Source: Anthopleura xanthogrammica (taxonomy: Eukaryota > Cnidaria > Anthozoa > Actiniaria > Actiniidae). From it: a DNA stretch of 64,000 nucleotides. Made by a program: the position numbers and the translations under genes. Each line of letters starts with the position of its first letter. Position 1 is the stretch's first letter. The notes under the pieces are model-generated. The model was not told where the DNA came from, ran no database searches, and saw nothing but the letters and a program-made list of their open reading frames with translations. The stretch is taken from NCBI GenBank assembly GCA_964019055.1, contig OZ025212.1:4244766-4308765 (forward strand), written 5' to 3'. Below, piece after piece: positions 14,444 through 37,187 of the stretch.

Positions 14444-15247
14444 TTATATGTCATTTAAAGTAGATTTTAGGTTACAATCGAGTACTCTTGCTAAGTCACA
14501 GACTCGTTTCATGGTACTTGCAGTCAGGGATTCCACCTGGCGCTGAGGAAAGGAAAAAAAACAAAAAAAAACACAACCCGATCAATTAAACAATTAAGAT
14601 GGTTTGAACTCCAGTCGATGAATTCATTTTTGGTTTTCTAATATCTTTTTGCAATTTCATTTAAAGAGATGAAGTTGAGTGATTGAAACATACAAAGGGC
14701 AATTACGAAAAATGTCCATTAAAATAAGCAATGCCTTAAAGCAGTTATCTTCGAGTTTTTAATGCCTGGTGACAAACTGTTTTTTTTTTTATGCGTGTGG
14801 TTTGTTTCAGCTCAAAGGGATGAAAGCCAAATGGGGGATATATTTTTTTCTTATTTTGTCTTTCTTGTTCATTTTCATCTCATCTTGTCTCATGTCGTCT
14901 ATTTCCTTTTCTTGTCTTTTCTCTTCTCTTCTCTCGTCTATTTTCCTCGATCCTCTCCCCTCCTCACCTCTTCTCAAACCATTATAACTCTAGCGAATAC
15001 ACTTTTACACTTTTTTATATATAGAAAATGTAAAAAGCAAAGTCTGACTGAAATCAAACCATTATCACTAATACCGTAGCTCTAACACATATCGCTATAA
15101 AAACATGATTCAAGATCTTACCCTTCTATATGCTCTTTTACCATACGGTGGAGATGGCATACCACCGTGTACTTCTTGTACTTGCATCAGTAAACTTCCC
15201 ATCACCACAGCCAAGACAAACACGAAAGATAACTTTATTTTCTGCAT
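14444..15247 (-). CDS. Gene A: secreted GKR / C-x7-C peptide precursor, two exons, 74 aa
   Basis: Exon 1 is 15122-15247 (42 codons), exon 2 is 14444-14542 (32 codons plus TAA), phase 0. The ATG at 15247 opens a basic n-region and a hydrophobic core (residues about 5-21) typical of a signal peptide. A short Pro-rich stretch follows, ending PSPPYGKR at residue 38; Gly-Lys-Arg is the usual cleavage plus C-terminal amidation signal. The donor reads AGG|GTAAGA and the acceptor has a strong pyrimidine run (tttcctttcctcag). Exon 2 contains the loop CDLARVLDC after a Met-Lys-Arg. A TATA box lies 50 bp upstream of the ATG. The layout matches genes B, C and D in parallel orientation. Function is unknown: neuropeptide, venom/nematocyst peptide or host-defence peptide are all possible. 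No family is recognised. Confidence 0.75.
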
Positions 15248-15296
15248 GTTTCAAGGTTGGTTCTTTGAGTGTGAACAACGTCTCGAGCAACATGCT

Positions 15297-15305
15297 CTTT
15301 TATAA
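15297..15305 (-). promoter_or_regulatory. TATA box of gene A
   Basis: On the minus strand the bases read TTATAAAAG, 50 bp upstream of the ATG at 15247. This places the transcription start about 20-25 bp before the ATG. Confidence 0.6.
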
Positions 15306-16450
15306 CCACAAACTGGCACTCATTGTGACATTTCTGGCGGGGCTGGTGGGGAATGAACGAACAGCGACCAACGGTAATGAACTATTAAAAACATATCATT
15401 ATGCCATCGAGAATAAAAACGGATATTTGAGGTCTTTATTCTTCAAGGTTATCAAAATAAATTGCCTATCAATTTAAAACCCACTCTGAGGATTTTTGAC
15501 GAAGGCCAACTTGTAGAACGTCCCTCGACCAAGGACACATTATATACTATAAGCAACTACTCATAGTCTTCACGGTAAAAAAAAAAAACACGAGACTTTA
15601 AGGGCCTCGTATTTTAATGGACTCGACTGAGAACCTAAGAAATATTTTTCTTTAGAAATCGAAAAGAATAATCGTTTTTCATTGATCTTCATTTAATGCC
15701 GGCAAAATCGGCTTTTCTTTGACCACTTCCAAATTCCTGCTCGAGTCGAGCACCAAATACTAAAGCACTTTCAAGCGTCGTTTTACTTCCTACGTTCAAG
15801 ATAATTCTCGTATTACCTCCCTTTAGAAAATAATGTTCAAAACAACGGTGAAAATAGGTGTAACACGATATTTCAATCATTTAAACTTGTTTTATTTTAG
15901 TGTCAGAAAGTATGTATTACGACGTCTTTCCCCGCAATCGCCTGATTTTATTACTACTTGATTTCCTCCGCTTAAACTTAATGCTCTTCTAAATATCCAA
16001 ACATCTCTCGCCAGTGGAATAAACAAATGCTTTTTAATCCAAAACCAAAGCTTAGATGATTAGCTTGTGGGTTAGTATTTTCAACTTTCTTTTAAGAAAG
16101 AAACCTTATAGAAGGCGTTTGAACAGGCATTTTATGTTTCGTGTTTCGAGATTCATATTTGTGTTTTTCTGTGAAATTTCGCGTGATTTTCCGACTGACT
16201 AGAAGTATAATTAGATAAAAGCAAAAAAAAAGAACTTTAATATGCTTAAAGGTTTATGGTACGAGGATCAGAGTGATATTTCCTGATGAACGGCTTGTGA
16301 GTTTGATAGCTACTTGAAGCTGACAGGTTAGTTCAGGTGTTATTTCACGGCTTATCGTCTCCACTCTTACCAATCTTTCTAAACTTGAAGGTCAAAAGCT
16401 TGCTAGTATTGTAGAGAGGATTTTGTCTCGAAAACAGGAATGATTCAAGA
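15306..16450. other. No gene seen
   Basis: AT-rich intergenic sequence upstream of gene A. The short frames at 15130-15477 (plus) lie over gene A exon 1 and its promoter and are shadows. The minus frame 15689-15880 has no supporting signal. Confidence 0.4.
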
Positions 16451-16461
16451 ACTGGGCAGAA

Positions 16462-16650
16462 CAACGCAACACAGCACAGCACAGCACAACACAACACAAC
16501 ACAGCACAACACAACACAAAGGGAAGAGAAGAGAAGAGAAGAGAAGAGAAGAGAAGAGAAGAGAAGAGAAGAGAAGAGAAGAGAAGAGAAGAGAAGAGAA
16601 GAGAAGAGAAGAGAAGAGAAGAGAAGAGAAGAGAAGAGAAGAGAAGAGAA
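16462..16650. repeat. Compound microsatellite (ACAGC/ACAAC)n then (GAGAA)n
   Basis: About 11 pentamers alternating acagc and acaac (to 16518) run directly into about 26 near-perfect gagaa pentamers to 16650. Three long apparent reading frames here are products of the repeat. Confidence 0.95.
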
Positions 16651-16697
16651 CTAATGATGGTAACAAAATCGAGACAACCCTCCAAAAATATAACATT

Positions 16698-16775
16698 CGA
16701 TCACGCGATTGTTACCTCACGCGATTGTTACCTCACGCGATTGTTACCTCACGCGATTGTTACCTCACGCGATTA
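16698..16775. repeat. 16-bp tandem repeat, about 5 copies
   Basis: The unit cacgcgattgttacct repeats head to tail, ending in cacgcgattagc. The core tcacgcga is itself nearly palindromic. Confidence 0.9.
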
Positions 16776-17248
16776 GCTAATGTCACACTTCTTTACTTTT
16801 GGCACAAGTGTCACAGTGACAAGCTATTGGCCCATTTGAATTAGCATCCACTCAGTTCTGTGCAACTAAAATATATACATTCTTTCTTGTCTTATTTTAT
16901 CTTGTCCTGCATGTATATGGTCATGTCTCTTAAAAATATAGCAAAGCTAAAATGATGCGCTTTGTCGCCTGTTTTTTTTAAATATTTCTCTTTTTTCGAG
17001 AACAAGTTCATAGTTCTTTTTTCCCCCGCCCTTTTTCCTGTCGAAAATTAAATTCAGACATGAAATATCGTTCTTATTTTCCTGTTTTAACACGTACTAG
17101 CATCCACACTTGTTGTGTGATGTTGTTATATGCTTAAGGCTTGAGGAGTCAGGACAATTAAGTAGAAAAGGCTTTGAAAACGTAGGACAGTGATCTTAAG
17201 ATAGTGGTAATGGGAGGATGTGTTTCATTGATGTAGAGTGGAATTAAT

Positions 17249-17500
17249 AAATGAATGAATGAATGAATGAATGAATGAATGAATGAATGAATGAATGAAT
17301 GAATGAATGAATGAATGAATGAATGAATGAATGAATGAATGAATGAATGAATGAATGAATGAATGAATGAATGAATGAATGAATGAATGAATGAATGAAT
17401 GAATGAATGGATGGATGGATGGATGGATGGATGGATGGATGGATGAATGAATGAATGAATGAATGAATGAATGGATGGATGGATGGATGGAAGAATTAAT
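17249..17500. repeat. (GAAT)n / (GGAT)n microsatellite
   Basis: Roughly 160 bp of gaat tetramers, then ggat tetramers, then gaat, then ggat again. Long minus-strand frames of Ile-His-Ser-Phe repeats over this tract are spurious. Confidence 0.95.
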
Positions 17501-18057
17501 GAATGAATGGCCAGACAACGGTTTAAGGAACACGAGAAGAAATGCCAGTCATTTCCTACGCAAATTCGCGACTTTGACAAACATCGAGCATATATCAATT
17601 ATCCTTCTTATCTTTTTATCTTTTAAAGAGAATTCTAAAGCAAAAGAAAACTGCAAATACAGATCGCCTACGTCTACCCGTTCGGCATTCCGTATACGGC
17701 CCTTTTCATTTATTAAGTCAAATACAAAAATACCACAATGTCCATACGTCAACTAAGCTTATTTCAGTATGATAAATATCTTAATCTCAAAATTGAGGAA
17801 GTATTTCTTTATCGAGATAATGATGATATGACCCGGTTACATGAACAACGATAGATGTGAAGTGTTTTGAAGATAACGACGTAAGTTATAAGATGTTATC
17901 TACTATTTAAGTCAGACAAGGTAGAATAGAAGGGTATTATATTTCACATATATGACTATATATACACCAAGACTAACCGCTTATATTTTGAAAACAGCTT
18001 CAGTTTAGTGGAAATCATCTGGAAACTTATCCATTCGAGCAGTAATTGATTTTTAAT

Positions 18058-18200
18058 TTTCTTCTCTTCTCTTCTGTTCTCTTCTCTTCTGTTCTCTTCT
18101 CTTCTGTTCTCTTCTCTTCTGTTCTCTTCTCTTCTGTTCTCTTCTCTTCTCCTCTCTTCTGTTCTGTTCTGTTCTGTTCTGTTCTGTTCTGTTCTCTTCT
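18058..18200. repeat. TTCTC/TTCTG pentamer tract
   Basis: A CT-rich minisatellite: alternating ttctc and ttctg pentamers give a 15-bp pattern (ttctgttctcttctc) for about five copies, followed by a run of ttctg. Confidence 0.93.
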
Positions 18201-18515
18201 ATCAGTGCTTCTTATAACGCATTCTTAAAGCTAAAGCTACACAGAACAGAGAGTAGTCGAATTTTACACTTTTTCAACTTTCCATTCAATAATAGATTGA
18301 TAGAGATTAATAAAGTTTATTTATCTCATTTATAAGGCTCACATATTATATTTATATTTATCATTGTACTTTTCCGTATTATACTAAACAAATTAAAGCA
18401 TATTACAATAATATGACATTTTCAGTATTACATACAGACCAGTTTTAAACTAATTTTTTACTTAATAATCATGTTTTTTCCATGTTTCCAATCTTGATAT
18501 CTGATAGTGTCATCG

Positions 18516-18618
18516 TTAATCGATATCCATTCGGGGTTCATCGCTTACCGCTATACTCAGTGAGTGGTTGCACGTGGTGCACGTGGGGCTTCGTCCACAA
18601 TTTCTTGCGTAGCAGTTC
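18516..18618 (-). pseudogene. Relic or diverged second exon of the GKR / C-x7-C family
   Basis: On the minus strand an acceptor (ggattttttatag) is followed by GAACTGCTACGC and, 80 bases on, by a segment closely matching the end of gene B exon 2 (GGATATCGATTAACGATGACAC versus a near-identical stretch ending at 21104). The middle is rearranged and about 22 bp longer, the two cysteine codons are gone, and the frame shifts and stops early at a TGA. No first exon was found upstream. A duplicated intron block (19111-19325, matching 21484-21660) supports it being a duplicate of the gene B locus. Confidence 0.6.
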
Positions 18619-18851
18619 CTATAAAAAATCCTCCAAATCAACAACAAAATCATGTACTGAAAGCTATGAACTCTTGGCTTTTACCATGCACCAAGAGACT
18701 TTGCCTCTTTTTGTCGTTGTCGTTGCTTTTTGTTGTTGTCGTGCTGTTGTTGCTGTTTTGTTTCCCTCAGTTATTTATAAGATGAATTAAAATTAATGAA
18801 TTTAGTAGAAGCAATGGGGTTTATCTTACTTCATTTTCCATTTCCAGTCAT

Positions 18852-18978
18852 TTAGACCCAGTTCAAACGTCGATCTTCTCATGAGCCGAACCTAATAACA
18901 TCAAAGAAGACCGTCTTATTATCCGTTGTTTTCAATGCGTTCGGCTCATGAGAAGATCGACGTTTCAACTGGGTCTTA
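18852..18978. mobile_element. Inverted-repeat (MITE-like) element
   Basis: 40-bp arms 18852-18891 and 18939-18978 are complementary with two mismatches (left arm core gttcaaacgtcgatcttctc), around a 47-bp loop. The form is that of a small foldback transposon. I recall arms of this type as common in cnidarian genomes, but that is memory and not a search. Confidence 0.8.
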
Positions 18979-19110
18979 GAGTACAGATAAAAGCTGTTTT
19001 TTAACAAAGTTAATTATTAAAAAAAATACCAACTAAATAATAGCACCGTTTTCCAAAAAATGTTGGATGGTTTGGTAAAAGTTTCGTTGTTCTATACAGC
19101 TCAGTGGCTA

Positions 19111-19325
19111 CAGAAATATTAATTTTCATGTGGATTCTGTTTCAATCCCATAATCCCACGCTCACCTTGAGTCACGTGACAAGGCATGTTTGTTTCTTAG
19201 CGTCAGTTTCTAGTCTACACTTTTCTGGATATAAAGTGTTGATAAGCAATTCTAATAAACTTAATTGTTTATCTAAGAGTGAAGCAGAATATTACCTTTA
19301 TATACCTTCACTTTTTTCTACATTT
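19111..19325. repeat. Duplicated segment, copy 1
   Basis: Shares long matches in the same order with 21484-21660: tgtttcaatcccataa, gagtcacgtgacaag, catgtttgtttcttag, gtctacactt, ctggata and gtttatctaagagt. The partner lies in the intron of gene B, and this copy lies at the equivalent side of the relic exon at 18516-18618, so the two loci come from one duplication. Confidence 0.8.
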
Positions 19326-19330
19326 TGACT

Positions 19331-19375
19331 TGTTGATAATGACGTTCAGCCAACGTTAACGTCGAAACGTCGTCG
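19331..19375 (+). repeat. Hairpin with GTCGAAACGTC motif
   Basis: GACGTT (19341-19346) pairs with AACGTC (19358-19363) immediately before GAAACGTCG. It has the same arrangement as the hairpin at 20643-20680, probably an end of a retroelement family. Confidence 0.5.
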
Positions 19376-20195
19376 ATTTTAAGTTTTATAACATTTTATC
19401 GCAGAATTTTGTAACCATTTTTTTAAATGTATATGTCTATTATTTTCTCTTTCTATACAGTTAGCAATCTTTCCCTTTTTTTATCAACAACGATGTATTC
19501 ATGAATGACATGACATGATTCTTCTATTTTTGAATGGCTTGTATACTTCTCTTCTAGATGATACAAGAAAATGTAACTAGCCAATCAGCGCGAAGCTAAC
19601 AAGCTCAAGTTGTTAGCATAGCCCATGACAGGAAAAAATTGCGCACCAAAACCTGCCTCAGTAGAGTAGGGTACGAATAATTTTTTTCGGTCAGAAAAAT
19701 CGAAACTAAAACTCAAAAAACTTTTAAAAATCAATATACAACAATATTTACAACATGATATAACAATTATCTCCAATAAAATAAAATCATTCTTGAAAAT
19801 GTAAAGCATCAAATAAACTTTTTTTAATACGTCGAGGCTCCCCTCCCTCGAATTGAAATGACTAACTGCACTAACTACCATCAGCGTCCTTCACTTGAGA
19901 GTTGGTTCACCAACTTAGAACAAGAACCACATAACAGCAGCCAAATTCTACCGGCACCTTATAAAAGACTCATGCATGACCTCAAAAAGACCGATGACGC
20001 TGCCGCAGAACAATAGACTATTACTTTGTGATAACACTTCGGTTTAACCCAGAACAAAAGACTACTACTTCCGACAATACCGACGCGACTATACGCAATA
20101 GAGGCTTTGCACCAGCACGTGATGGCAGCCATGAGAGGAGGCAGGAACAATGAAGTCTTCCCCCTGGGAAACTGAATTCTTTCTCATGTAATTAA

Positions 20196-20298
20196 CAATT
20201 AGTCCTCGAGTCCGAATGGTCTACGAGTCAATAGCCCATGCGGCCGAAGGCCGCATGGGCTATTGACTCGTAGGCCATGAGGGCGAGAGGACTAATTG
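20196..20298. mobile_element. Near-perfect hairpin element, 103 bp
   Basis: The inner 53 bp (20221-20273) has two perfect 25-bp arms around a 3-base centre (gcggcc-gaa-ggccgc). The outer flanks pair less well and end caattagtcctc / gaggactaattg. Confidence 0.85.
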
Positions 20299-20304
20299 TT
20301 TTAG

Positions 20305-20484
20305 TAAAAACCTACTAATCGGTCCAATAAAAGGACGCAAAAAGTTTTGGATTTTGCTTTAAATATATATTTTTTGGTTTTCAAAACCGGCGCTTTTCGC
20401 TACTAGAGGTCTATCACTAATAGACCCCTAGTAGCTCAGCCAATCACAGGGCTCGATTGGTGATAGACCATTAGTAGGTTTTTT
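20305..20484. mobile_element. MITE-like element with AAAACCTACTAAT ends
   Basis: Ends read aaaacctactaat and attagtaggtttt, with subterminal complementary blocks ctactag / ctagtag and ggtctatcac / gtgatagacc. It is about 180 bp with no coding capacity. Confidence 0.7.
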
Positions 20485-20639
20485 CTAAATCATATTAGAC
20501 CAGATTCAATTGTTCCTGCCTCCTGTCATGGCTGCCATCACGTGTTGGTGCAAAGCCTCTATACCGACTAATTACTGTTTAAGTTACGACCGCAGCACCA
20601 GAGCTATAAATACCATCTACTGTCTTTCATTCCCCACTG

Positions 20640-20765
20640 TACTCTGAAGATGACATCCGTTCAGGTTGTCGAAACGTCAGTCTCCACCAACAACAGTCTT
20701 TCTCAAGACACTCACCCGGACGAACACATTACTTACTCTATTATCATTATTATTATTATTGATAA
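20640..20765 (+). mobile_element. Probable retroelement 3' tail
   Basis: Contains CTGAAGATGACATCCGTTCA, then GTCGAAACGTCAGTC and CTCACCCGGACGA, ending in an (ATT)n run. I recognise this string type from memory as a widespread cnidarian retroelement tail, possibly Penelope-like; the family is not certain. Confidence 0.5.
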
Positions 20766-21103
20766 CTCCACAACAAACATTGAAGCCTAAAGAGGTATAT
20801 TCAATATTGTCGGTCAAGACACTCATGGGTATTTCAGCACTTTATTGTACTTTTCCTTGTTTATATATTTAGTTAACAATTCGCCCTAGGACAGGTAAAA
20901 TACGAAAGGATACAAGGTCCCCTATAGGTAAATTACCCATGTTACTAAACAAACTAGTGGTTTTTTTTCTTCATATTTCTTTATTATTGTTATTTTCTAT
21001 CCAAGATACCACTAATAAATAACCAATAGGTTGTAAAGTGTTTGTTCAGTTCCTGGCAGTGATTTCCAAGGCATTGTGATATCGGATCGGAGTAGTGTCG
21101 TCG

Positions 21104-22723
21104 CTAATCGATATCCAATCGGAGATCATCGTTCGCTGGACATCGGATCAGTGTTGCTGCATTGCAGATGCTCTGGCGGACTTCCTATTAAAATTACATA
21201 CAAAAGAAAAATCGAACTGGTTTTACCACCAAAAATATTTTTCATTCTTGTTTGTTGTTGTTGTTGTTGTTGTTGTTGTCTTCAGTTTGCTGTTTATCAT
21301 TTCGGTTTTACATGTTTTCTTAAAATCAAATTAATTATGCCAACATTTCCCAAAATTTTGGGTGATTTGCTAAACGTTTAGTTGCTCTTTAAAACTACCT
21401 AACAGAATGACTACAGTCATAGTTGAATAGCCCTATATTTTCTTAAGAAATCAATTCAAGAAAATAGCTTGTTTTTTTAGTTTTTATATGAATCCTGTTT
21501 CAATCCCATAACCCCACGCCCACCATGAGTCACGTGACAAGACATGTTTGTTTCTTAGTGTCAGTTTCTGGTCTACACTTTGCTGGATAGAAAAAATTTA
21601 AAAAGTAAACTAATCTGCTTAATTTAAGTTTATCTAAGAGTAAAGTAGAATATCAGACATTGTGTTTTGGCGATTTTTTTAGGTTAAAATGATTAAATTT
21701 AGGACTGCAGTACAAATAAATAACTTAGCAGAGCTCCAAGATAAAGAAAAAACAATTCAAGTCGTGTAAACAGCTTTATGTTCTTATGGCTCGTACTAAA
21801 CATAAATATAATCCTTATTTGAAAAATAGAGGAACTCGGTAGTTGGCTGTGCAGCATATTGAAAAATTCCTAATAAATTATGACAAGCCTTGGTATTTGC
21901 TGTTAGGAAATGTTTCATTTTTCCCCTCCTTTTCATTTTTCTTATTCTTTCCCTTTTCCCGATTGTTATTCCATTTTTTCTTTCTCAGTTTTATTTTCTT
22001 CCATCCTATCATTTTTATTCAGTTTTTCATTTTCTATTTCTCTTTATTGTTTCTCCTTCTCTTTTATCTTTGCTTTTTTCCTTGTTTGTTTGATTTTTGA
22101 TTTCTGGTTTGTTTGTTCTTATGCTTGTTTCTTAAGGTGGATCCAAGGAGTTATTTTTGAGTCAAACTTCCCTTTTTGAATCCGCTTATACATACTCTTA
22201 CTTTAGCTCAATGAATCTGGATTTTAAACCAAATGTTAGACTTGGATGAAAGTTTTGAATGATGGTCTTTTTATGCTATTCAGCGTTTCCAAAGCAACGA
22301 TAACCAACCTTTTCGCAAAACAGTTTCTCCTAAATATCTTTCGAAATCGGGCTGAAACATGTTTAAAATTATTCAAAAATAACTACTATGAGCTACCTTA
22401 AGTAAGAAAGAATTTTCCACAAGTCAACGTACCGTATATCTAGTATATACTTCCTATCTCTTCCTTGTTTACACTCTCTTACCTTACTTATACTGCTGCT
22501 ACGTCATTCAATATGCATCCTATGTTACATTCATGTTCCACCATACCATACATACACTTGCTTGCTATACTTCTTTCTCTCTTACCTTACTCACACTGCT
22601 TCTTTTACCGTAAGGTGGTCCAGGTACAGGCACAGGAACTTGTGTAGTACAACTCCTATCCACCAACACCAACAATCCAAATAGCAACGTAAATAAGACG
22701 AGAACTTTCTTGCCACAGCCCAT
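21104..22723 (-). CDS. Gene B: secreted GKR / C-x7-C peptide precursor, two exons, 72 aa
   Basis: Exon 1 is 22586-22723 (46 codons), exon 2 is 21104-21184 (26 codons plus TAG), phase 0. Met-Gly-Cys-Gly-Lys-Lys starts a signal peptide with a Leu/Val-rich core to about residue 22. A Val-Pro repeat follows (VPVPVPGPPYGKR, GKR at residues 39-41). The donor is AAG|GTAAGA and the acceptor gtaattttaatag is AT-rich with a weak pyrimidine tract. Exon 2 carries the loop CNAATLIRC followed by PANDD. The 1.4-kb intron contains GTT repeats, a CT-rich tract and the duplicated segment 21484-21660. A TATA box precedes the start by 53 bp. Function unknown; grouped with genes A, C and D by architecture and loop spacing. 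Confidence 0.75.
21484..21660. repeat. Duplicated segment, copy 2 (intron of gene B)
   Basis: Counterpart of 19111-19325; see that entry for the shared blocks. The copies differ by scattered substitutions and small gaps, so the duplication is not recent. Confidence 0.8.
21900..22100. repeat. CT-rich low-complexity tract
   Basis: Pyrimidine-rich on the plus strand with irregular ttttc/ttctt words. Three overlapping Phe/Leu/Ser-rich frames here reflect composition and not genes. It lies within the gene B intron. Confidence 0.8.
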
Positions 22724-22775
22724 CTTCTTTGTCTGGTTACTTGGTTAAATGTGGTTCGATCTTCGCATAGACAGA

Positions 22776-23450: not shown

Positions 23451-23880
23451 ATACATTAAAAAGAAAAAATCTAAGCAGCGTTATTAGCGAAAAATTCGTT
23501 GTAAAATGGAATATAAATATATAAATATATACTGATTAAAGAAGAGACAAGCTCTTCGCCACCCCGAGCACCACGCCGGCGCACCCACCAGACAGACTTT
23601 AAAGATACAGATACATGATACAGAGGGGCCTTGGGAAACTATTAAACTACTTACAATATTAGTGGGGGAATAAGGGTCGATGAAATACTTCACTGCTTAC
23701 AATATTTAGATACGAAAAATCTAGCTATATCAAAAAAGCAACATATATATCGCTAAAGATTTATGAGATAGAGATAAATAAAATGTGAAAATGATAAGAT
23801 GTGAGAAATATATGTCATTATGCTAACAAAGAAAAAAGTTAGAATCGTATTACTTTTATTTTCTATGTAACTTACACATT

Positions 23881-24290
23881 GATCTAAGTCAGGGCATGGC
23901 TAACTCACATATTGAACCCTGAAACAACCTCTGGGTTGATCTAAGTCAGGGCATGGCTAACTCACAGATCGAACCCTGAAACAACCTCTGGGCTGATCTA
24001 AGTCAGGGCACGGCTAACTCACAGATTGAACCCTGAAACAACCTCTGGGCTGATCTAAGTCAGGGCACAGCTAACTCACAGATTGAACCCTGAAACAACC
24101 TCTGGGTTGATCTAAGTCAGGGCATGGCTAACTCACAGATTGAACCCTGAAACAACCTCGGGGCTGATCTAAGTCAGGGCATGGCTCACTCCCAGATCAA
24201 AAACTGAAACAAACTTTGTCCTGATCAAAGTCAGGGCCCGCGTAACTCACAGATAGAATTGGACTTTAGTGTGTTAGGTTTTGCGGAGGT
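23881..24290 (+). mobile_element. 57-bp tandem repeat inside a dispersed element, copy 1 (about 6.5 units)
   Basis: The unit begins gatctaagtcagggcatggc and ends acaacctctgggct (57 bp). The array is followed by a flank (ttagtgtgttaggttttgcg and then gagg) that recurs beside the other two large arrays at 28375 and 39825. The repeats are therefore internal to a mobile element. Confidence 0.85.
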
Positions 24291-26542: not shown

Positions 26543-26559
26543 GCCAGTTGTAATCTAAT

Positions 26560-27072: not shown

Positions 27073-29673
27073 TCAATCGATATCCGTTCGGGCGGGTTCG
27101 TCGTTTGCTTGACATTGAACGAGTCTGGCTGCCTCACAGATGTGCGTACGGGCACGAGAAGCTGCCTGAAAGAAACGGGGAAAGATAATAAGAAAACTAT
27201 AGGCACTAATCAATATTTTGTAATAAAAGTTGAACAGGATGGAAGTTTGTCAAATACTGACCCCCTCCCCCCACAGCACCCGAAACCCTCCCCCCCCCCC
27301 AAAAAAAAAAAACATATCAACAGTACCAACACACGAAGATGCACACTTTTGGTCATTACGTCAAACCAGACATGAAAAATCCAAATGTTTAAGATTCAGG
27401 AACAATTATAAGCGCAAATCATGAACAGCACACAACATTTCGGTGAAAAATAGAAATTTATTCCAAACGATTGTGATGACTTATGAAAAAAATTGTTCTT
27501 CGAAACAAGACCAACTTTTTAGGATTTCTAAACTACTTCCTTAGTGATCCTGAATCTAGGTGCGCAATGTATTATTTGTCATCTCCTTAGCTTAGTTCTT
27601 CCTCCTGATCTTCTAGCCTTCTCTCTCACCCCAACAAAATTATACTGAATAGGATTGATGAAAAACAGGTAATTCTGAATCTAGGAGCGCAATCGCATTG
27701 TTTGTGAATTAAGATAAAATTGCCTAATATTTCTAGTACTTTTATGTTTTGATTCTTTGCTCAAACAGAGCATTTCTCGCTAACAAACGCAAATAATGAC
27801 ATTTGTTGAAAGTATTCGGTCATGCGATTTTTACTTGGGTGAGTTCTATTGAATTTTTGAGGGGAAAAGGGGAAAAGTTGTGAAGTATTGAATCAAAAGC
27901 CAGCTTGTATTAAGCGATATTGAGCTCCAAACAAAATGCTTCCTGGTTGGCTGATTCACAGAGAGCATCACATCACCTGGTCTGATGGTCTATAAAGAAG
28001 TTTGACAAAACTCGAGATCATAAACCACGTCTTCCACAATACTCTATAAGTCGACTTTATATCGAATCGAGGACCTTTTGTAACAGTTTTTTTTTCACAC
28101 CCTTTTATTGTTATGTATGTAATTGTCTGTTCTAAGTGTCTGGTTATCTTCTTGAATGCCTCACGCAGTGACAAGAGCGATAATAGCCAGGAAGAGTGTG
28201 CCATCGTAGGAATCATTTGAAACTTTAAGTGCCAGTTCGAAGAGCATATCTAACAATTACTCTAGGGGATATTATTGAATGAATGAGTAAAAACAAGTAG
28301 AGATGGTCACGGTCAAGAGGTAATATTCCGTTTAAATTTTATCGACACCCTAGAACGATCCTATATGGAATCGGACGATCTAAGTCAGGACATGGCTAAC
28401 TCACAGATAGAACCCTGAAACAACCTCTGGGCTGATCTAAGTCAGGGCATGGCTAACTCATAGATTGAACCCTGAAACAACCTCTGGGCTGATCTAAGTC
28501 AGGGCACAGCTAACTCACAGATTGAACCCTGAAACAACCTCTGGGCTGATCTAAGTCAGGGCACAGCTAACTCACAGATTGAACCCTGAAACAACCCTTG
28601 GGCTGATCTAAGTCAGGGCACAGCTAACTCACAGATTGAACCCTGAAACAACCTCTGGGTTGATCTAAGTCAGGGCATGGCTAACTCACAGATAGAACCC
28701 TGAAACAACCTCTGGGCTGATCTAAGTCAGGGCACAGCTAACTCACAGATGGAACCCTGAAACAACCTTTGGGCTGATCTAAGTCAGGGCACGGCTAACT
28801 CACAGATAGAACCCTGAAACAACCTTGGGGCTGATCTAAGTCAGGGCACAGCTAACTCACAGATGGAAACCTGAAACAACCTTTGGGCTGATCTAAGTCA
28901 GGGCACAGCTAACTCACAGATTGAACCCTGAAACAACCTTTGGGCTGATCTAAGTCAGGGCACAGCTAACTCACAGATGGAACCCTGAAACAACCTTGGG
29001 GCTGATCTAAGTCAGGGCACGGCTAACTCACAGATTGAACCCTGAAACAACCTCTGGGCTGATCTAAGTCAGGGCACGGCTAACTCACAGATTGAACCCT
29101 GAAACAACCTCTGGGTTGATCTAAGTCAGGGCACGGCTAACTCACATATTGAACCCTGAAACAACCCTTGGGCTGATCTAAGTCAGGGCACAGCTAACTC
29201 ACAGATTGAACCCTGAAACAACCTCTGGGCTGATCTAAGTCAGGGCATGGCTAACTCACAGATCGAATTGGAATTAAGTGTGATAGTTTTTTCGGAGGGA
29301 GAAAACGAAACGATACACTTGAGATTGAACACAAAAAAGACACAAACCTAGCTCTAGCGGAGAAGTGAATATTGACTGTGGGATAGATGATGCATGCTGG
29401 TACCTTACACGTTCTGTTGAAATGTTTTGGGTTTTACTTTATAAGGCTAAATAACAAAGGGATTCATGACAAGGGTGTGGCAAGTGGGTCCATATACTCA
29501 TCCACGCGTCTTCTAAAGAGACAAAATGAATCATTTTTTTTTACCTTGCGTGCGCTGCTTCGCTTTCCAAACGGAGATCCAGGAACCGGTACGGACGCTT
29601 CGTTCCCGCCAAAAAACATGGACAACACTAGCATCAAAGCTACCAGGACGAACACTTGCTTGGTTGACTTCAT
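27073..29673 (-). CDS. Gene C: secreted GKR / C-x7-C peptide precursor, two exons, 73 aa
   Basis: Exon 1 is 29545-29673 (43 codons), exon 2 is 27073-27165 (30 codons plus TGA), phase 0. Met-Lys-Ser-Thr-Lys is followed by a Val/Leu/Met-rich signal core. After the probable cleavage near Asn-Glu-Ala comes SVPVPGSPFGKR (GKR at residues 36-38). The donor is AAG|GTAAAA (weaker than in the paralogues) and the acceptor ccccgtttctttcag is strong. Exon 2 carries the loop CEAARLVQC followed by QANDE and ends Asp-Ile-Asp like gene B. The 2.4-kb intron holds a C/A homopolymer run, no second gene, and the large 57-bp array. A TATA box is 114 bp upstream of the ATG. Function unknown. Confidence 0.75.
27263..27313. 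repeat. C-rich then A-rich homopolymer tract
   Basis: Runs of C (including 11 in a row) followed by 12 A. It lies in the gene C intron, and the two small plus-strand frames across it are spurious. Confidence 0.9.
28335..29310 (+). mobile_element. 57-bp tandem repeat inside a dispersed element, copy 2 (about 16 units)
   Basis: The array 28375-29265 uses the same 57-bp unit as 23881. The left flank (taaattttatcgacaccc) resembles the flank of the short copy at 44520, and the right flank (agtgtgatagttttttcgga) matches copies 1 and 3. Units differ from each other by known alternates (cagc/tggc/cggc; attg/atgg/atag). Confidence 0.88.
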
Positions 29674-29786: not shown

Positions 29787-29795
29787 GTTTTATAC
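29787..29795 (-). promoter_or_regulatory. TATA box of gene C
   Basis: Minus strand reads GTATAAAAC, 114 bp upstream of the ATG at 29673, implying a longer 5' leader than in genes A and B. Confidence 0.5.
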
Positions 29796-30521
29796 ACTCC
29801 ATGGCTGCAATTATGCCTTGTTATCGTGTTCAGCTGGCGTTGTGACTCAAGTGGCTGCGAACAAATAATCGTGCGAGAGTCAGAGTTCTCAATTCAACAT
29901 CTCCAAACTCCAGGACTTTTAAAACAACTTCTCCGCTCTTCAAACTGCCCAACGCCAAACATAATAACTCACTTAGCATGAGCTCGCAAATTATAAAAGA
30001 AAATACACATGATACTGAAGGGAAAAAAAAAAGAAAAATTTATACTTTTGAAATTTGTAGTATACCTAAAATATAGATTTAAATAAGTTATGAGAAGGGG
30101 CGTTAACTTTCTATGTCTTGATTTTCCACATTGAAATAAAGGAGAAAAAAGATATTTATTTGTTGCGCAAGAAACTAAATATTGTTTGTAGGCGTTGGTT
30201 ATTTGTCGTCATTATTGGTGTTGCTGAACTGAGGTGATCCGAGTAAATTTGTGGGTTGCGCAATCCAATTTGGACTCAAACATCTCACAAGACGAGTCAG
30301 TAGTTAGCCCTATAAACGCCCCAAGCTCAGTAATTAATCCAGGACGATAGAAAATTTAAAAAAATCCTTCCTTGTGATATATTTTTTATTAAAAATCTGT
30401 ATTAACCTTTTTTTTTTGTATCAGAAATTTTGTGAAAATGAGCAACAGTTAGCGTCTCAAATCTCCTAATTTTAACATTTTTTTCTCGTTAGCACTGTAG
30501 GTTTTTGTCAAGCGTTATTTG

Positions 30522-30702
30522 GTCCATTACCGAGTTAATGAATAATTTTAATTTTTATCGATCATATTGAACTTAGATTCCAAATTCAAAGCATCATATC
30601 AAGCAGTTTGTAGTCCATTACCAAGTTAATGAATAATTTTAATTTTTATCGATCATATTGAACTTAGATTCCAAATTCAAAGCATCATATCAAGCAGTTT
30701 GT
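30522..30702. repeat. 91-bp direct duplication
   Basis: gtccattaccgagttaatga and the following bases through aagcagtttg occur at 30522 and again at 30613 with almost no differences, adjacent head to tail. Confidence 0.9.
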
Positions 30703-31036
30703 CGTTGCTAATGAGGAAAAAACTCATTAATTTTAATCTAATAGGATAATCGTACCCAATCGATTCTACTCATCTTTCAATATAGGAGAATATCTACCCT
30801 AAATAAAATTGTCAAATAAACAATTTAAAAATTCCACCTGCGTGTTGGTTGGGTAATCTTACCAACATGCGATTTTTCATAGTTTTTCATTACTTGCTAA
30901 AATGTGTTTCATGGTGACTTGCTAGCCTGGTTTTGACGAGTGTGCAAAGCATTCATGTCAAGTAGACAAGGGTTTAATTCAAACTTAATTTCCGATTTTC
31001 TAGCACAACAGGAAGACAAAACTCCCTCCTCATCGA

Positions 31037-31613
31037 TCCAGGTGATCTGACTAGGCGCTTAAAGTAAGATTTCCTGATCTGAAAAAGAATCAATCCCATC
31101 ATCCACCGCACGCTCAATAATGCTCAATTTACTTGAGTTTCACAATAAATCTTTTCTCGTTGAAAACGAGACACTCTAAATAACAGATAAAAGGATTTTT
31201 TCTTAAGGTTTAAAGCATCTTGGAGATTGCCAAGGACCAAAGAGCAGCGTAAGATGTGGGAATTTTAGTTAAATCATGCAAAGTGAATCGAAAAAGCCTT
31301 ACTTCTTCGAGATCGTTTCAACGGTAATTCTTTAATAAAAAAACATGGATAATGAACTAATCGATTAAAATATATTCCCAGTCTTATCTAGATAACTTAT
31401 TCTTTGAAGAAGAAACATTTTGAGCCTTAAATCATAGGCTACATGACACTTCTCCTTGCATATTTGTACTTGTATGCTATTTTGTTTTGTTTTGATTTCT
31501 CCCTGTTCATCCACGATTGGGCTCGAAAAGACGCATGGGATTGATTCTTTTTCAGAAAAGTGATTAACAATCGGATTGGCTAATCGTTTTTCCTCAGATC
31601 ACCTGGTACAAGA
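31037..31613. mobile_element. Inverted-repeat element (about 580 bp)
   Basis: ccaggtgatctga near 31040 pairs with tcagatcacctgg near 31595, and ctgaaaaagaatcaatccca near 31076 pairs with its complement at 31532-31551. The arms are imperfect overall. No coding sequence lies between them. Confidence 0.65.
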
Positions 31614-31690
31614 AATCGTTCCTTTCAGTTGACTTCATTAAATAGAATATCCGCAAATTTAGAGACGTTAAACGTTGATGGGTCACACAT

Positions 31691-31942
31691 CAGGGGCGGA
31701 TCCAAGAATCTGAGAAGGGGGAGGGAATCGGTGTTATAAGAATCTCTCCGCTGACTAAGTACTATGCTAAACGAAACTACGGAAGGATTTGGGGCATGCT
31801 CCAAAAGAAGTTCGTAAATTATGGCTTTCAGAAATGCTATTCCCTGCGTATGGGGATATTTTGGACAAAAAAAGGTTAATAAACTGCAACCAAAACCTGG
31901 TCCCAAACTTAAGGGGGGCCATTGGCCCACTCCTTGATGCAC
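31691..31942. mobile_element. Fragment of a CAGGGGCGGATCC-ended element
   Basis: Starts caggggcggatccaag, the same terminal sequence as the complete copy at 52739-52981. The right end is a G/C-rich ggggggccattggccc stretch without a clear matching terminus, so it is probably truncated. Confidence 0.55.
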
Positions 31943-31949
31943 CCATGCA

Positions 31950-34510
31950 AGTTCAACCGTTCATTGCAATCTTAAAGTTTGACCCTTTGTAAACGAAGTC
32001 TCAATATATCTTTTTTTTCGATATTCGAACCGTTTCCTCGATTGCGACTTTGCTTCTCAAAAGGAATGTGATCTAGCTCACTAGCGTGTTTAAAATCATG
32101 TTCTGTCAAAAAATGTATAATTCTTGAAAATACTCTGAGATAAAACTTCTAACATCTTCTACGTTGGCTTTGCCGCGGTTAGTAGTTATCTACCCATAAT
32201 GCACCGCTTTTGACATGCGCACTAATTGCGCATTTATAGGTTTGATATTGAGCGCTTTAAACAGTTGCACAATTAATTTTGATAATCTTAACGAGTTTTC
32301 CTTGCATCACAGACAAACCTGTGGCCCTCATTTCTTGATCAAATTGAAATTTTGAAGTTGATTTTTTTGGACTGAGAGGAAAACCGGAGAAAAATCCTCG
32401 AAGCAAAGGCGGGAGAGAATCAACTGCAACTTTATTCACATACGAACCGCTACGACACCCGTGCTTACCAACGCCATACCGCACGCATCACATTCTCAAA
32501 TCGGGTTACGAGATATTTTACCAAGCATTAGATTATGTTATCAAACGCCTTATGACCGCAACTCCAAGGTAGCTATACTCGTGTATAAACGATGGCTATA
32601 AAAACCGCAACAAAAACGAACCCTGCTGATAGTCCTGCTGTAGTTGCGTTAGATCAACAGAGATACTTATTTTTTACTCATTTCTCTTATCTGTAATTGG
32701 TTGCCTAAAGATTTTGGTGGTCGCTTTTGACAGGTTGACTTCTCGATCTACTCTTAAGTAAAAACACCTGCGTGCTTAATTAAACTTTTAAAGGAATAAG
32801 TTATTAATTTACTGGTCGATTTAAAAAGGTGACCGCACCTGGTCGAAGTGTTATCACCTGCTGACACACTTAATTAATCGTTATATTTTTTTGGTCGTTT
32901 TAGACAAGTGGCCGCCTGGTCGGAGCGTCCAAACAGCTGTGCTCTGGCTTGATATATATTAATTTTAATAAAGTAAGTTCGTCACCTGAAAACCCACAAA
33001 GATGAGACAGAAAAGGAATATGGGTTGATACATTTTGCATGTTTCAAACGACCGCTTGATAAGATCTTTTACGTATACCAGTTACGATTTCACCTCCTGT
33101 GAGCATCTTCAAGCTGCAGTTTGAAACAAAATCTTTACTTGTTTGATAAAGTATTGCCTATGTCCCTCAGCAGTCCCCCAACTTATCTAAAAGAATATTT
33201 CCACTATGAGCTGAAAAGCATGAGAGAAGCGAGAGAAATAACGATTCGGCTACACGTTTCGTGTTCCTAAGTTTTGCTATGCATGCGCGCTTTTTGGATA
33301 TTTAGTAATATATAAACGCGCGCGTGTCTTTGGGAACACTCTTGGAGTTGTTTAGAACATAAGACAAACAAGTTTATTAGGAATACGAGCATATATATTG
33401 TATTTTTAAGTACACGTAATGTTCTAACATGAATATTTTTTAAAGTACCTTTACGAGAAATGCCGCAGAAAGGCTGGAGTTGAGAGTATTGGGCTTTAAA
33501 TTCATGTTTCATGAAATGAAGGGCTGAGAGAGACAGACAGACATAGACAGAGAGAAAGAGAAAAGGAGAGAAATACAAATAGAGGTAAAAATAGAAATAT
33601 ATCAGAAAAAGTGGTATATATTCGCCACTTTGTGAGTATTCTGCAAATAATCTTAGCCTATAATGCCTTCAGGACAAAACGCCGAGAAAGCGTTCAAAAT
33701 TGACCTGAATCTTGACAATGCCCCGCGGATGTTGATTCTACTTAGAACTAGGAACTCCTTCAGACACTTAACCAAACGATTGAAGATAATACAATTGGTA
33801 GAGGCAATAAGAAATGAGTCCATTGACTGTCCTCAAGCTTTCGAGGTATAAGACACACATGCAACTAATGGACTTTTCAAAACGTTTTATCCCTTTCCTG
33901 TGGTTCAAAGTCCCCAAGGTTGAGTTTCTTGAATGACAAAGTTGACATTTATTTTTGAAAAAATTAAAAATGAATTTTAAACTGAAAAACAAAGCTGAAA
34001 AGCAACAACAAACTATAGAAATAGAACAGAGATCATTTTAATGAACTTTGATCGTCTGAGAAGTGTTTTTCTCCGAGTTACGCATTTGAATTTTTTTTCC
34101 AATTCTATTTATTTTCCTTTTTCATTCTTTTTATTAAGCATTTTTTCCCCCGAGAGACTAAGAATTTAAAAATTAGAAATTAAAAAATTTAGAAATTTAA
34201 AATTTGAAAAGAATTTGCGCCGCACGCCAAAGGCTAAAAGTATTTAGAAAAGGAAGAGAAACCAACGTCAGACCACACGGAAAGAGTAAAACAGGCCGGT
34301 TTTTTAAATAACTGCTTCAAAAACCGGTGTTTCTACCTATCGAGAATGTTTTTTCTTATATAAGAGTGGTGATAAAACGTGACAGCCATATATTAAGAGC
34401 GCGCGAGCTTTAAGACGAGAATGGTGTAATAACCAACTCAGTTTAAAATTTGGATTTTGTTTTTATGAAGACGATGAGAAATGGGATATGGCGAGGAAGA
34501 GTGGATCACA
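31950..34510. other. No gene seen
   Basis: AT-rich intergenic DNA. The frames at 32257-32484 and 33267-33578 (minus) and 33663-33851 (plus) have no recognisable domain, signal peptide or splice partner. A purine-rich gacagaca patch is present near 33530. Confidence 0.4.
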
Positions 34511-34518
34511 GGAGTGGT

Positions 34519-34549
<31 letters not shown>

Positions 34550-34552
34550 GGC

Positions 34553-34610
<58 letters not shown>
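34519..34610. repeat. (ACAG)n microsatellite
   Basis: About 23 acag units with one gcag; the DRQT and VCLS reading frames over it are repeat artefacts. Confidence 0.95.
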
Positions 34611-34611
<1 letters not shown>

Positions 34612-35168
34612 GATAGAGAGCGAATAAAAGAAGAATAGTTAGAATCGAGATTATAATGAAGACGAAGGAATATTATGTATATGGAGAAAAAGAAGGAATG
34701 GACTAACCATGGGTGAGGTTGGTAATGAGGGACTTTATAGTGTTGGTACACTGTTGAATACCCTAATCGAGTCCTTTAGTATGCTACTCATTGAGGTGCG
34801 TTTGAAGTCAGGACGAGTGCGTTGGTTACTGCTATGACGTCACTCTCCCCTAGAACCAGTCCCCCCAGTAGCATACGTGTTTTTAATGATCGTGTTTTTT
34901 TTTTAATATTCAATTAATGCAAATATCAAACTAGTGCAACAGCAATAAATATACTCTTACAAGATCTACAAATACATTATTATATACAGTCAAGAAAGCA
35001 AACATTTAGTCTTCCCGTGCTTTAGGCAGGCATGTAAAATTGTATTGAACACGGCTTCTAGCAAATAGACAAATGGATATTTGCACTTTCATGACGTTTT
35101 CATCAATTATCTTTATCTTTAAAAATATCTTTGTGCTTGTCAGTCCAGCTAGTGTTGGCCTTATCTTG

Positions 35169-37187
35169 TTAATGTCGTGTGTTGATGCTTCGTGGGTTTG
35201 AAGTTTTGGTGTCGGAGAGGTCTTCATTGCACCGTAAGAACTTGGTTGCTTGGCAAATTCTTTGTCTGATTATCAGCAAATCTTCATTTGGAAGCTGGAA
35301 AAATGTATATGTGATTAAAATTTGTTGAACATTTAGATAACCAAATTTGGACATTTACTCGTTAAAAATCACAAGGCGAATGAAAGTTAAGAGAAAAGTT
35401 AAAAGCAAAACGAAAGAAAGATAGAAAAAGAAGAAAGAGAAAAAATATCATGTTTGCTGACGTACGTTGTGTTCCGGCAAGCCCATTACCCTTGATAAGC
35501 ACAAACATCAACACAATGTCGCCGGACTTTCCCCACATATTTCCTAACAGATGGAAAGTATTTTTTCCCGAAAATCCAAAGTTTTTTGTCCTGAACAAAA
35601 ATATACTTAACGAAGACTGTCTGCATTGAGTGTTCTTAAAGAAAACGGAGCATGAGATTAAGGAAGATCAGGAAGGGAAGAAGACGGGGGAAAAATATAA
35701 CAAAATGAATGCAAAAATTATGTCAAAATATATTTCCTGGATTAGACCATGCAAAATGAGTTCATGAAACACAAGACTTACTATCTTAATAAGATACTTC
35801 AACGAATTCGAAGAACAAGTATAAGAACTGATAATGATCAAAATTCTTAAGTCGTAATAACGTGGTTTACAAGCGGTTAATCTGATATCAGACGCTGTAT
35901 GACGTCAGTAGTGCTTTGAATATGATATTGATTGGCATATAATTATAAAAATAAATGACATGATATTGGTTTCCCATACTTTTCTCTGATCCTATTTCCG
36001 TCACACATGGAGAAGCAACTTTTGGAATACAAAGATATTTTTGAATCAAGTCATAGTTCCGTGGAAAAGAGAAATATCTTGCGTGCACACTTCTTTTGAA
36101 ACCATATAATCCTTCAAATTTATGGAAAATTTGTTTTTCGACACTCATTGGCAGTTTTAGAGCAACGATAAAGAAAATATTTGAATGGTGTTTGCCAAAA
36201 TTGTTGAAAAAGATGTCCACTTCTTCTAAATCAATAAAACTCTCTTGAAATCAAACTAATCCTTCAAATTTTATGGAAAATATTTCTTCAAAAGTTTCAT
36301 TGGCAGTTTTAGAGCAATACTGAAGAAAATACTCTGATTTGAACTGTTTTTGTGAAATTGCTGAGAAAGATGTGCACACTTCTTCTAAAGCACCAAAATT
36401 CTCTTGAAACCAAACTAACCCTTCAATTTTATTAAAAAAATCATTTTATCAAAGTTCTCATTGGCAGATTTAGAGCGATACTAAAGAAAATAGTGATATG
36501 AACTGTGTTTGTGAATTTTTTTTGAAAAAAATGTAATCAACTGAGGTGCTTTTCGAGTTACCACCTGGTTAATTAAGCTAATACATTTTTGAAAAATTAA
36601 ACTTGCATTGCAAAATATCGAGCCTAAAAACCTTTAATTTCTAGTAATCGAGTATTTAACATTAACTTCGGACTTCGCTGCGAGCGCCTTTGCAGTAATC
36701 CGCTTTGAATGAACACTATATTTTCATAACGTATGGCTTGTTTTCTAAGTAAAACTAGTGCTCAGTACTTGATGGAAGCATGATTGAAAACTTCGTACCA
36801 ACCCGAAAACCGGGGGCAATCCTTATCTCTTTTCGACTAATTGCTTTTCACCTTCTAGCTACTAATTTAAGTTCTATTTGTTTTTAGAATTACTTAGAGT
36901 TGTCAAAAAAGATTTTAGGGTTTAATCTGTTTGACATTGTGATATTGGATTTGGATGGCGTTCAGTTTTTGAACTAAGTACGTAAAAGAGAAGGAGAGAG
37001 AGAGAGAGCGAGAGAGCGAGAGAGAGAGCTTTGTAAAATTACACCAGTTTTACGTAAAAAAAATTCTTACCCTGTTCCTTTTGCCATAGCTAACCCCAGG
37101 AAACAATCCATGGGTCGGTGTAGATAGGCAAGACAGCAAGAACAGTACTGCACCAAGGCTGATCAGAATCGTCTTGTTTGAGGCCAT
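35169..37187 (-). CDS. Gene D: secreted GKR / C-x7-C peptide precursor, two exons, 80 aa
   Basis: Exon 1 is 37071-37187 (39 codons), exon 2 is 35169-35294 (41 codons plus TAA), phase 0. Met-Ala-Ser-Asn-Lys precedes a Leu-rich signal core; cleavage is plausible after Thr-His-Gly, releasing LFPGVSYGKR (GKR at residues 35-37). The donor is AGG|GTAAGA, the acceptor acatttttccag. Exon 2 carries CQATKFLRC followed by Asn-Glu-Asp and a longer polar tail than the paralogues. The 1.8-kb intron contains a three-copy ~155-bp tandem repeat (36090-36545) and a GA microsatellite (36990-37028). A TATA-like element lies 81 bp upstream. An alternative open frame over the same exon (35006-35227) is longer but lacks the family loop. 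Function unknown. Confidence 0.72.
36090..36545. repeat. ~155-bp tandem repeat, three diverged copies
   Basis: Blocks beginning tcttttgaaaccatataatc (36093), tcttgaaatcaaactaatcc (36242) and tcttgaaaccaaactaaccc (36402) each continue through cattggcag.tttagagc and aaagaaaata. It lies in the gene D intron; the minus frame at 35888-36220 runs across it and is not supported as a gene. Confidence 0.85.

Follow-up and report, generated by a model that had tools for sequence, protein, structure and literature searches.

A probable family of single-copy amidated neuropeptide precursors with a two-cysteine tail in the sea anemone Anthopleura xanthogrammica

We found that four clustered genes (A-D) in a 64,000-nucleotide stretch of the Anthopleura xanthogrammica genome (hereafter the window) and two further genes of the same genome (E and F) share one architecture. 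Judging from their sequences, they are probably a neuropeptide family, and apparently one that has gone unrecognised. The explanation that we favour, and consider likely, is that A-F are paralogous single-copy precursors of amidated neuropeptides in a hexacoral, each with a cysteine tail that would serve precursor folding or sorting.

Genes A-D all lie on the minus strand, with start codons at 15247, 22723, 29673 and 37187. The start-to-start distances of 7476, 6950 and 7514 bases agree with an initial annotation of this DNA, which had described four two-exon genes in one orientation about 7.5, 7.0 and 7.5 kb apart. The splice junctions proposed there fit the sequence: the predicted introns (15121-14543, 22585-21185, 29544-27166 and 37070-35295) are each GT-AG and phase 0, with donors just after Gly-Lys-Arg. 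The second exons, which had been put at 26-41 codons, comprise 32, 26, 30 and 41 codons in A, B, C and D, each with two cysteines seven apart; the remark that the second cysteine is mostly followed by Asn-Asp/Glu fails in A. The features are as follows.

15122-15247, minus strand: gene A exon 1, encoding a leader, about GMPSPPY, GKR and AYRR; TATA box at -57 from the ATG
14543-15121, minus strand: gene A intron, phase 0, 579 bases
14444-14542, minus strand: gene A exon 2 including the stop codon, RQVESLTASTMKRVCDLARVLDCNLKSTLNDI
18451-18654, minus strand: decayed exon-2 copy of the E type, between A and B
22586-22723, minus strand: gene B exon 1, encoding a leader, (Q)VPVPVPGPPY, GKR and SSVSK; TATA box at -60 from the ATG
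21185-22585, minus strand: gene B intron, phase 0, 1401 bases; beyond its edges without a blastn match to the gene E intron
21104-21184, minus strand: gene B exon 2 including the stop codon, EVRQSICNAATLIRCPANDDLRLDID
29545-29673, minus strand: gene C exon 1, encoding a leader, SVPVPGSPF, GKR and SSARK; TATA box at -121 from the ATG
27166-29544, minus strand: gene C intron, phase 0, 2379 bases, containing a 57-base minisatellite
27073-27165, minus strand: gene C exon 2 including the stop codon, AASRARTHICEAARLVQCQANDEPARTDID
37071-37187, minus strand: gene D exon 1, encoding a leader, LFPGVSY, GKR and NR; TATA-like box at -88 from the ATG
35295-37070, minus strand: gene D intron, phase 0, 1776 bases
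35169-35294, minus strand: gene D exon 2 including the stop codon, LPNEDLLIIRQRICQATKFLRCNEDLSDTKTSNPRSINTRH

Gene B has a second in-frame donor nine bases earlier, which is weaker (2.7 versus 7.1, scored on a donor consensus), and its leader also contains two cysteines. A TATA-like box lies 57-121 bases 5' of the ATG in all five genes tested (A-E), and a Kyte-Doolittle scan finds a strong hydrophobic stretch near the start of all six members, the leader being judged by hydrophobicity.

The four genes described in the initial annotation are present, and the family is larger: with two more intact members from the genome, it has at least six intact genes and one decayed copy. Gene E (contig C7, predicted junction 3289117/3288742) lies 0.97 Mb from A and is closest to B, with an identical peptide end. 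Gene F (contig C7, predicted junction 4230324/4231280) has the opposite orientation and is separated from A by about 28 kb; in the 14 kb past its exon 1 there are four two-cysteine exons, only the first of which has a spacing of seven. All six intact members have a leader, a Gly with a basic site, a phase-0 intron no more than five codons after that site, and a C-x7-C tail. This supports the earlier view of the genes as duplicates of a secreted precursor that has a signal for cleavage and amidation and a tail of the single-disulfide type. The cleavage site is GKR in A-E and GRKR in F, and the peptide ends are, from A to F, PPY, PPY, SPF, VSY, PPY and FRI. By eye, the peptide directly follows the leader in A-D, whereas the Pro-rich stretch is longer in E and an RR-bearing spacer precedes the peptide in F.

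Searches of the same genome with C, B, A, E, D and F as queries (E-value limit 10, one run 0.001) gave no accepted member beyond A-F; as the A, C, D and F queries matched only themselves, more divergent members at other loci may have escaped these searches. One of these searches returned four weak matches on contigs C14, C1 and C20 (E 0.12-7.7). The decayed copy retains its acceptor edge (18614-18654) at 88% and its last eight residues with the 3' flank (18451-18543) at 97% to E, and the cysteine part between these two stretches is gone. A 177-base match joins 19119-19292 to the B intron, with an exon-2 trace at 18505-18543. Apart from the decayed copy, this match and repeats, nothing joins the 7-kb units among the matches listed (59 of 61 outside the minisatellite), and within that scope the even gene spacing is therefore not explained by recent segmental duplication.

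Very short exons, and a decayed copy between A and B, would suit chance open frames or dead copies, a reading that we find scarcely credible. A scan of positions 12701-64000 on both strands for a leader, G[KR]R and a phase-0 donor gave four matches, A-D, and nothing else; not one of 60 second-order Markov controls produced a match. In a 154-kb scan for a leader, G[KR][KR] and a donor, designed once A-F were already known, five genes pass, each with a phase-0 C-x7-C exon no more than 3 kb away; 40 shuffled controls averaged 0.125 such pairs (maximum 3) and 0.125 exon-1 matches (maximum 1). When the residues around C-x7-C, cysteines left out, were scored for each member against the other five, all six outscored every one of the 92 other C-x7-C frames in the 154 kb, F being much the weakest (3.6 versus 9.8-15.4 for the others). 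The intact frames of six copies and the restriction of B-E similarity to exons likewise argue against chance or dead copies.

Less specific scans were less informative. The tail exon by itself was a weak probe, finding three genes and missing B (controls: mean 1.1, maximum 4). When no donor was required, the leader scan gave two additional matches, at 51049 (minus strand) and in locus L041; neither has a phase-0 donor, and both were dropped. The pattern PP[YF]-Gly-(Lys/Arg/Gln)-(Lys/Arg/Ser) occurs at 32 places versus 26 in a reversed control, three of them being A, B and E; the 29 other places comprise 7 with Lys, 14 with Arg and 8 with Gln, and none of the 21 with Lys or Arg follows a leader. 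Precursors were absent from all nine places with FY-x-x-GKR and from the three inspected of six with FLRN-GKR, and GLRW-GKR occurs at zero places.

The initial annotation had called the genes old, fast-evolving duplicates. This holds for A, at 24-27% identity to B-E, and for B and C at 51%; B and E are a younger pair (dS 0.23 versus 1.4-1.5 for B-C). Their matching exon stretches are 79% identical. Their shared peptide PVPVPGPPYGKR has dN 0 and dS 0.37 over 12 peptide codons, whereas leader and tail evolve at about or above the silent rate: for the tail with the exon-1 end, dN is 0.33 versus dS 0.19, and 14 of 31 residues are retained, as are both tail cysteines. With only 12 peptide codons in this contrast and a bootstrap range of 0.55-2.57 for whole-gene dN/dS, we make no secure claim of selection. 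The likeness between exon 2 of A and that of B is not significant (118 of 1000 shuffles score equally high). The cysteine pair and its spacing are identical in all six members, while the remaining tail diverges.

In the amidated-neuropeptide explanation, a signal peptide would route each short chain to the secretory pathway, a prohormone convertase would cleave at Gly-Lys-Arg (Gly-Arg-Lys-Arg in F), a carboxypeptidase would remove the basic residues and PAM would convert Gly to an amide. Such cleavage, trimming and amidation would leave one short, C-terminally blocked peptide per gene with Pro near its likely N-terminus. Inferring the N-terminal cleavage points, we predict about GMPSPPY-amide (A), VPVPVPGPPY-amide (B), SVPVPGSPF-amide (C), LFPGVSY-amide (D), a longer ...APPVPVPGPPY-amide (E) and KPPGKTGPFRI-amide or a longer form (F). 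These peptides, presumably released from neurons, would signal to receptors on neighbouring cells.

Cnidarian precedents are consistent with these steps. Excerpts of a Nematostella mass-spectrometry study report KR cleavage, amidation and N-termini in which Pro occupies position 2 and/or 3, frequently behind an acidic residue (PMC11087051). Gene F (LD-KPPGKTGPFRI-GRKR) fits that pattern. Single-copy precursors with the peptide directly after the signal are described as usual in sea anemones, and Antho-RWamide, -RN, -RI and -KA are examples with one peptide copy so placed and often several paralogous genes (from part of PMC7523074). A sea anemone PAM has been cloned (part of PMC9545775).

The exon-2 tail comprises a short predicted helix and the two invariant cysteines. 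By analogy, it most likely aids precursor folding, pairing or granule sorting and would then be shed as a flanking piece. The initial annotation had assigned each gene two products, the freed tail also being active as a single-disulfide loop peptide, which we regard as possible but doubtful. Cleavage at GKR would liberate the tail anyway, the cysteine pair and spacing are constant in an otherwise diverging tail, KR in A and RQR in D precede the first cysteine by one residue, and the cysteine-bearing C-terminal part of the Aplysia luqin precursor has been detected as a peptide (excerpt of PMC7041311). However, B, E and F have no basic pair near the loop, and the tail substitutions between B and E, set against an unchanged peptide, also count against tail activity. 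The tail model, whose pTM of 0.33 is insufficient to support a fold search, predicts a helix unbroken across both cysteines. On such a helix the two cysteines would be too distant for a bridge within one chain.

We consider it unlikely that A-F are venom or defence peptides, with the cysteine tail as the active part and the Pro-rich piece as its propeptide. The genes are clustered, the tail changes fast around fixed cysteines and the host is a cnidarian; the C leader also matches the antimicrobial Pfam family Moricin below cut-off (E 0.047, 13.9 bits versus 27.6, residues 9-27), but that match is confined to the leader. A propeptide needs no Gly ahead of the basic site, yet all six genes have one, and the would-be propeptide is the part unchanged between B and E. 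Furthermore, cnidarian venom precursors carry a cysteine-rich C-terminal toxin, expressed in nematocytes or gland cells, whereas these tails have just one cysteine pair.

The initial annotation went too far in stating that no named family has this arrangement, since luqin/RYamide precursors share the layout, with an amidated peptide adjoining the signal peptide and a pair of cysteines towards the C-terminus (excerpts of PMC7041311 and PMC5940834). Compared by description only, this bilaterian family resembles A-F in those two respects, but its peptides end in RF, RY or RWamide, as none of the six does, and its cysteine spacing is usually 10 (excerpt of PMC7041311) versus seven in all six. On peptide end and cysteine spacing, luqin being known here by description, membership of A-F in luqin/RYamide fails. 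It seems to us very unlikely that both groups arose from one ancestral eumetazoan gene that already combined a signal peptide and an amidated Tyr/Phe peptide with a C-terminal region bearing two cysteines. The parts stand in the same order, five of six peptides would be Tyr- or Phe-amides, and luqin spacing itself varies, being 8 in C. elegans (excerpt of PMC7041311). Against this, A-E lack Arg before the aromatic residue, F ends in FRI, the spacing is seven, general database searches gave no relative, and convergence is easy for parts so short; excerpts of a Nematostella receptor study also describe short amidated cnidarian peptides as without clear bilaterian orthologues (PMC11087051). If such kinship were true, this would be among the very few short amidated peptide families common to Cnidaria and Bilateria, and the cysteine tail would be the lasting part while ends drift from RY to PPY, SPF, VSY and even FRI in one cluster.

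Two other families invite comparison with our candidate neuropeptide precursors. In arthropod SIFamide precursors the peptide immediately follows the signal and is itself followed by GKR and a short tail with two cysteines at a spacing of six; known here by description only, they differ in spacing and in peptide, as A-F never end in SIF. Antho-RWamide peptides (QGLRW) end in LRW- or IRWamide, as none of A-F does. The QGLRW-G pattern occurs at four places, and two of the three inspected are RWamide genes, 9 kb apart on contig C14. One (L052) has a charged tail with one cysteine and no C-x7-C; the other (L053) has no cysteine in the open frame past the peptide, which may continue in a further exon.

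Protein-database searches with four- and five-member alignments found no relative, in a collection from which very short spliced proteins may be absent. A control query, a nuclease exon of the window, retrieved a 97% identical protein, so the collection does include DNA of a close relative. No Pfam match reached cut-off and no solved structure matched at E ≤1; besides Moricin, sub-threshold matches were YlaC (E 0.14, on F) and 6fcg (E 1.6). PPYGKR, cnidarian PPYamide and FRIamide turned up in no paper of the literature searched, nor did broader queries list a fitting one, and novelty is provisional because supplementary precursor lists were outside the comparison.

Given the unrelated amidated end of F, relatives may be best sought through the tail and intron rather than through the peptide, and scripts seeking repeated peptide copies would overlook single-copy genes of this kind. 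The combination of an unchanged peptide, a drifting tail and invariant cysteines makes the role of a two-cysteine tail in short neuropeptide precursors testable. If expressed, A-F would add a peptide family to an early-branching nervous system and offer six natural ligands for one receptor group.

Four two-exon putative precursor genes, A to D, lie in tandem in the window, which sits on contig C7 of the 290-Mb genome, and two further intact members, E and F, were recovered on the same contig outside it.

Gene A: start codon at window position 15247, minus strand; two exons, phase-0 GT-AG intron of 579 bases
Gene B: start codon at window position 22723, minus strand; two exons, phase-0 GT-AG intron of 1401 bases
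Gene C: start codon at window position 29673, minus strand; two exons, phase-0 GT-AG intron of 2379 bases
Gene D: start codon at window position 37187, minus strand; two exons, phase-0 GT-AG intron of 1776 bases
Gene E: C7:3289300-3288661, minus strand; found by a genome search with gene B
Gene F: C7, exon 1 4230147-4230323 and exon 2 from 4231281, plus strand; found by a scan of fetched flanks

In A-D, exon 1 encodes a hydrophobic leader followed by a short peptide, Gly-Lys-Arg and a further 2-5 residues; exon 2 encodes a 26-41-residue tail with two cysteines seven apart. The four junctions placed by the initial annotation hold to the base as sequence predictions, with donor scores of 3.5 to 7.1 against a rough consensus; gene B has a second, weaker donor nine bases upstream of its main one. 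A 537-base array of the pentamer AGGCA (13637-14173) starts ~270 bases past the gene A stop codon.

We scanned both strands of 12701-64000, a range that leaves out the satellite in the left 12.2 kb, for a hydrophobic leader followed by G[KR]R, with a donor in phase 0 at most eight codons away. This exon-1 scan returned four matches, namely A-D (for gene B the weaker donor was the one picked up); all 60 second-order Markov controls gave zero. Scanning for the exon-2 type alone was far less specific, finding three and missing B (controls: mean 1.1, maximum 4). All 10 pairs of full-length proteins A-E were more alike than every one of 1000 shuffles. For exon 2 alone, likeness was weaker for A-C, A-D, A-E and C-D (2 to 7 of 1000 shuffles) and not significant for A-B (118/1000).

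Gene E, 0.97 Mb from A, has the same parts as the other members and a PVPVPGPPY-GKR identical to that of B; scans of 30 kb around it showed no other member. If its intron were retained, the frame at the intron start (L011, ~6025-6118, minus strand) would reach a second amidation-like site, EESIARY-GKR, ahead of a stop, possibly by chance. Gene F, found in 90 kb of flanking sequence, lies ~28 kb beyond A and encodes MELKFLSVFVLFLLYSTLLVQQTESINYELIRDNENGFRRSFLDKPPGKTGPFRI-GRKR and then VFQDIDENDVCERARAYGCQL. It was spotted first by its leader and GRKR, and its C-x7-C exon, sought only afterwards, lies 957 bases on and is the sole one with spacing seven among four two-cysteine exons in 14 kb. In a joint 154-kb scan (4204766-4358765), designed after F had been found, five genes (A-D and F) passed the exon-1 test, and for 5/5 a C-x7-C exon in phase 0 lay no more than 3 kb away (40 controls: mean 0.125 pairs, maximum 3); in C there is also an alternative with C-x8-C, and A has one further acceptor. 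Over the same 154 kb, each of the six tails, cysteines excluded, resembled the other five more than did all 92 unrelated C-x7-C frames, F by the smallest margin. The tails of F, A and C have C-[DE]-x-A-R in common. Across the family, then, the peptide varies more than tail and intron do.

Between A and B, on the minus strand, we observed the remains of a further copy. Positions 18451-18543 are 97% identical to the end of E exon 2 and its 3' flank, 18614-18654 are 88% identical to the acceptor edge of E, and 19292-19557 match part of its intron at 79%; the adjoining 19119-19292 match part of the B intron at 82%. Within this decayed copy the cysteine part between the kept pieces is unrecognisable and no exon 1 was matched. 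E or its parent therefore probably arose within this cluster. The six intact genes, in which the two-cysteine tail is fixed, and this decayed copy make up a real family.

Among the intact genes B-E is the youngest pair, with a protein identity of 58% and whole-gene values of dN 0.24 and dS 0.23 (NG86) or 0.27 and 0.17 (YN00). Their exons are ~79% identical, the alignment reaching only 18-25 bases of flank, and their introns gave no direct match. Divergence differed by region (leader: dN 0.25, dS 0.20; peptide and GKR, 12 codons: dN 0, dS 0.37; remainder and tail, 31 codons: dN 0.33, dS 0.19, with 14 residues and both cysteines kept). Bootstrapping gives the whole-gene ratio an interval of 0.55-2.57, so we claim a regional contrast for this pair and not positive selection. 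B-C (dS 1.4-1.5) and C-E (dS 1.0-1.3) are older; the majority of the remaining pairs lie close to saturation or beyond it.

The window also holds a 108-base satellite (1-12198; ~113 copies, 97% matches) that continues past the left end, with one frame open across long stretches. A 57-base minisatellite occurs at 23880-24258, 28377-29267 and 39863-40234, once inverted, with single-unit traces elsewhere, near 44538-44609, and copies at a locus on contig C20 (L049). Open frames at 44081-44386 (minus) and 48224-48556 (plus) look related by eye, contain HIECRDDELLQRF and NVQCRSNEFIQAF, respectively, both end near CCR and have no Pfam match. EXOG-like nuclease exons lie at 59933-62099, the first, with its intron edge, 97% identical to a database protein. 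Elsewhere in the genome, a chance pattern match (L050, C1:26227858) is by eye a leucine-rich-repeat receptor-like frame running into membrane helices. COX1 on the 20,039-base mitochondrial contig is split by an intron holding a homing-endonuclease-like frame, judged by eye; such an intron is typical of hexacorals. COX1 matches without this intron on C59 and C44 (L024, L026) perhaps come from bacterial companions in the assembly.

Convertase cutting and PAM amidation normally act on a conserved, glycine-extended peptide that stands ahead of a basic site. PAM is present in sea anemones (PMC9545775), and Nematostella mass spectrometry documents KR cutting, amidation and many mature peptides with Pro at position 2 and/or 3, often after an acidic residue (PMC11087051). 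On these grounds we interpret each gene as a single-copy neuropeptide precursor; judged from sequence, A-F are very probably amidated peptide precursors, in which convertase would cut at the basic site and PAM would amidate the glycine-extended peptide. Both cysteines persist in the tail together with a few further residues, and the C-type of this tail is predicted, with modest confidence, to be helical (pLDDT 76, pTM 0.33). Luqin authors, drawing an analogy to neurophysin, suggest that processing of the precursor in the regulated pathway may require its two-cysteine region (PMC5940834). By extension from luqin, precursor processing would be the likelier role of the A-F tail.

SIFamide precursors presumably have a layout similar to that of A-F. 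Luqin/RYamide precursors have the order of parts in common with A-F; their peptides end in RF, RY or RWamide, and the usual distance between their cysteines is ten, or eight in C. elegans (PMC7041311). As A-F differ in both peptide end and cysteine spacing, we did not file them as luqins; they may work like luqin precursors. Two leader-bearing nuclear genes encode QGLRW-amide, given as Antho-RWamide-2 of hexacorals in PMC7523074; taken with the split COX1, they make the host appear hexacorallian. These Antho-RWamide-type genes (L052 and L053, C14:7064459 and 7073627), ~9 kb apart and with unlike tails, carry QGLRW-GR and QGLRW-GKK after the leader, and the tail of one differs from those of A-F. 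Word searches of the main texts of PMC7523074, PMC6756747, PMC11087051 and PMC9525235, as distinct from their supplementary lists, turned up no PPY, SPF, VSY or PFRI amidated peptide and no two-cysteine tail. The PPY matches proved to be HIRamide peptides or the name of a program; the single cystine mention in PMC7523074 refers to a ring peptide of another kind. GGYamide, attributed to PMC9525235 by PMC11087051, was not found in the main text of the former; RYamides and RIamides are listed in a Hydra study (PMC12440616). We provisionally regard A-F as a new family among amidated peptide precursors, and an unusual one, since its peptide sequence is less lasting than its tail and gene structure.
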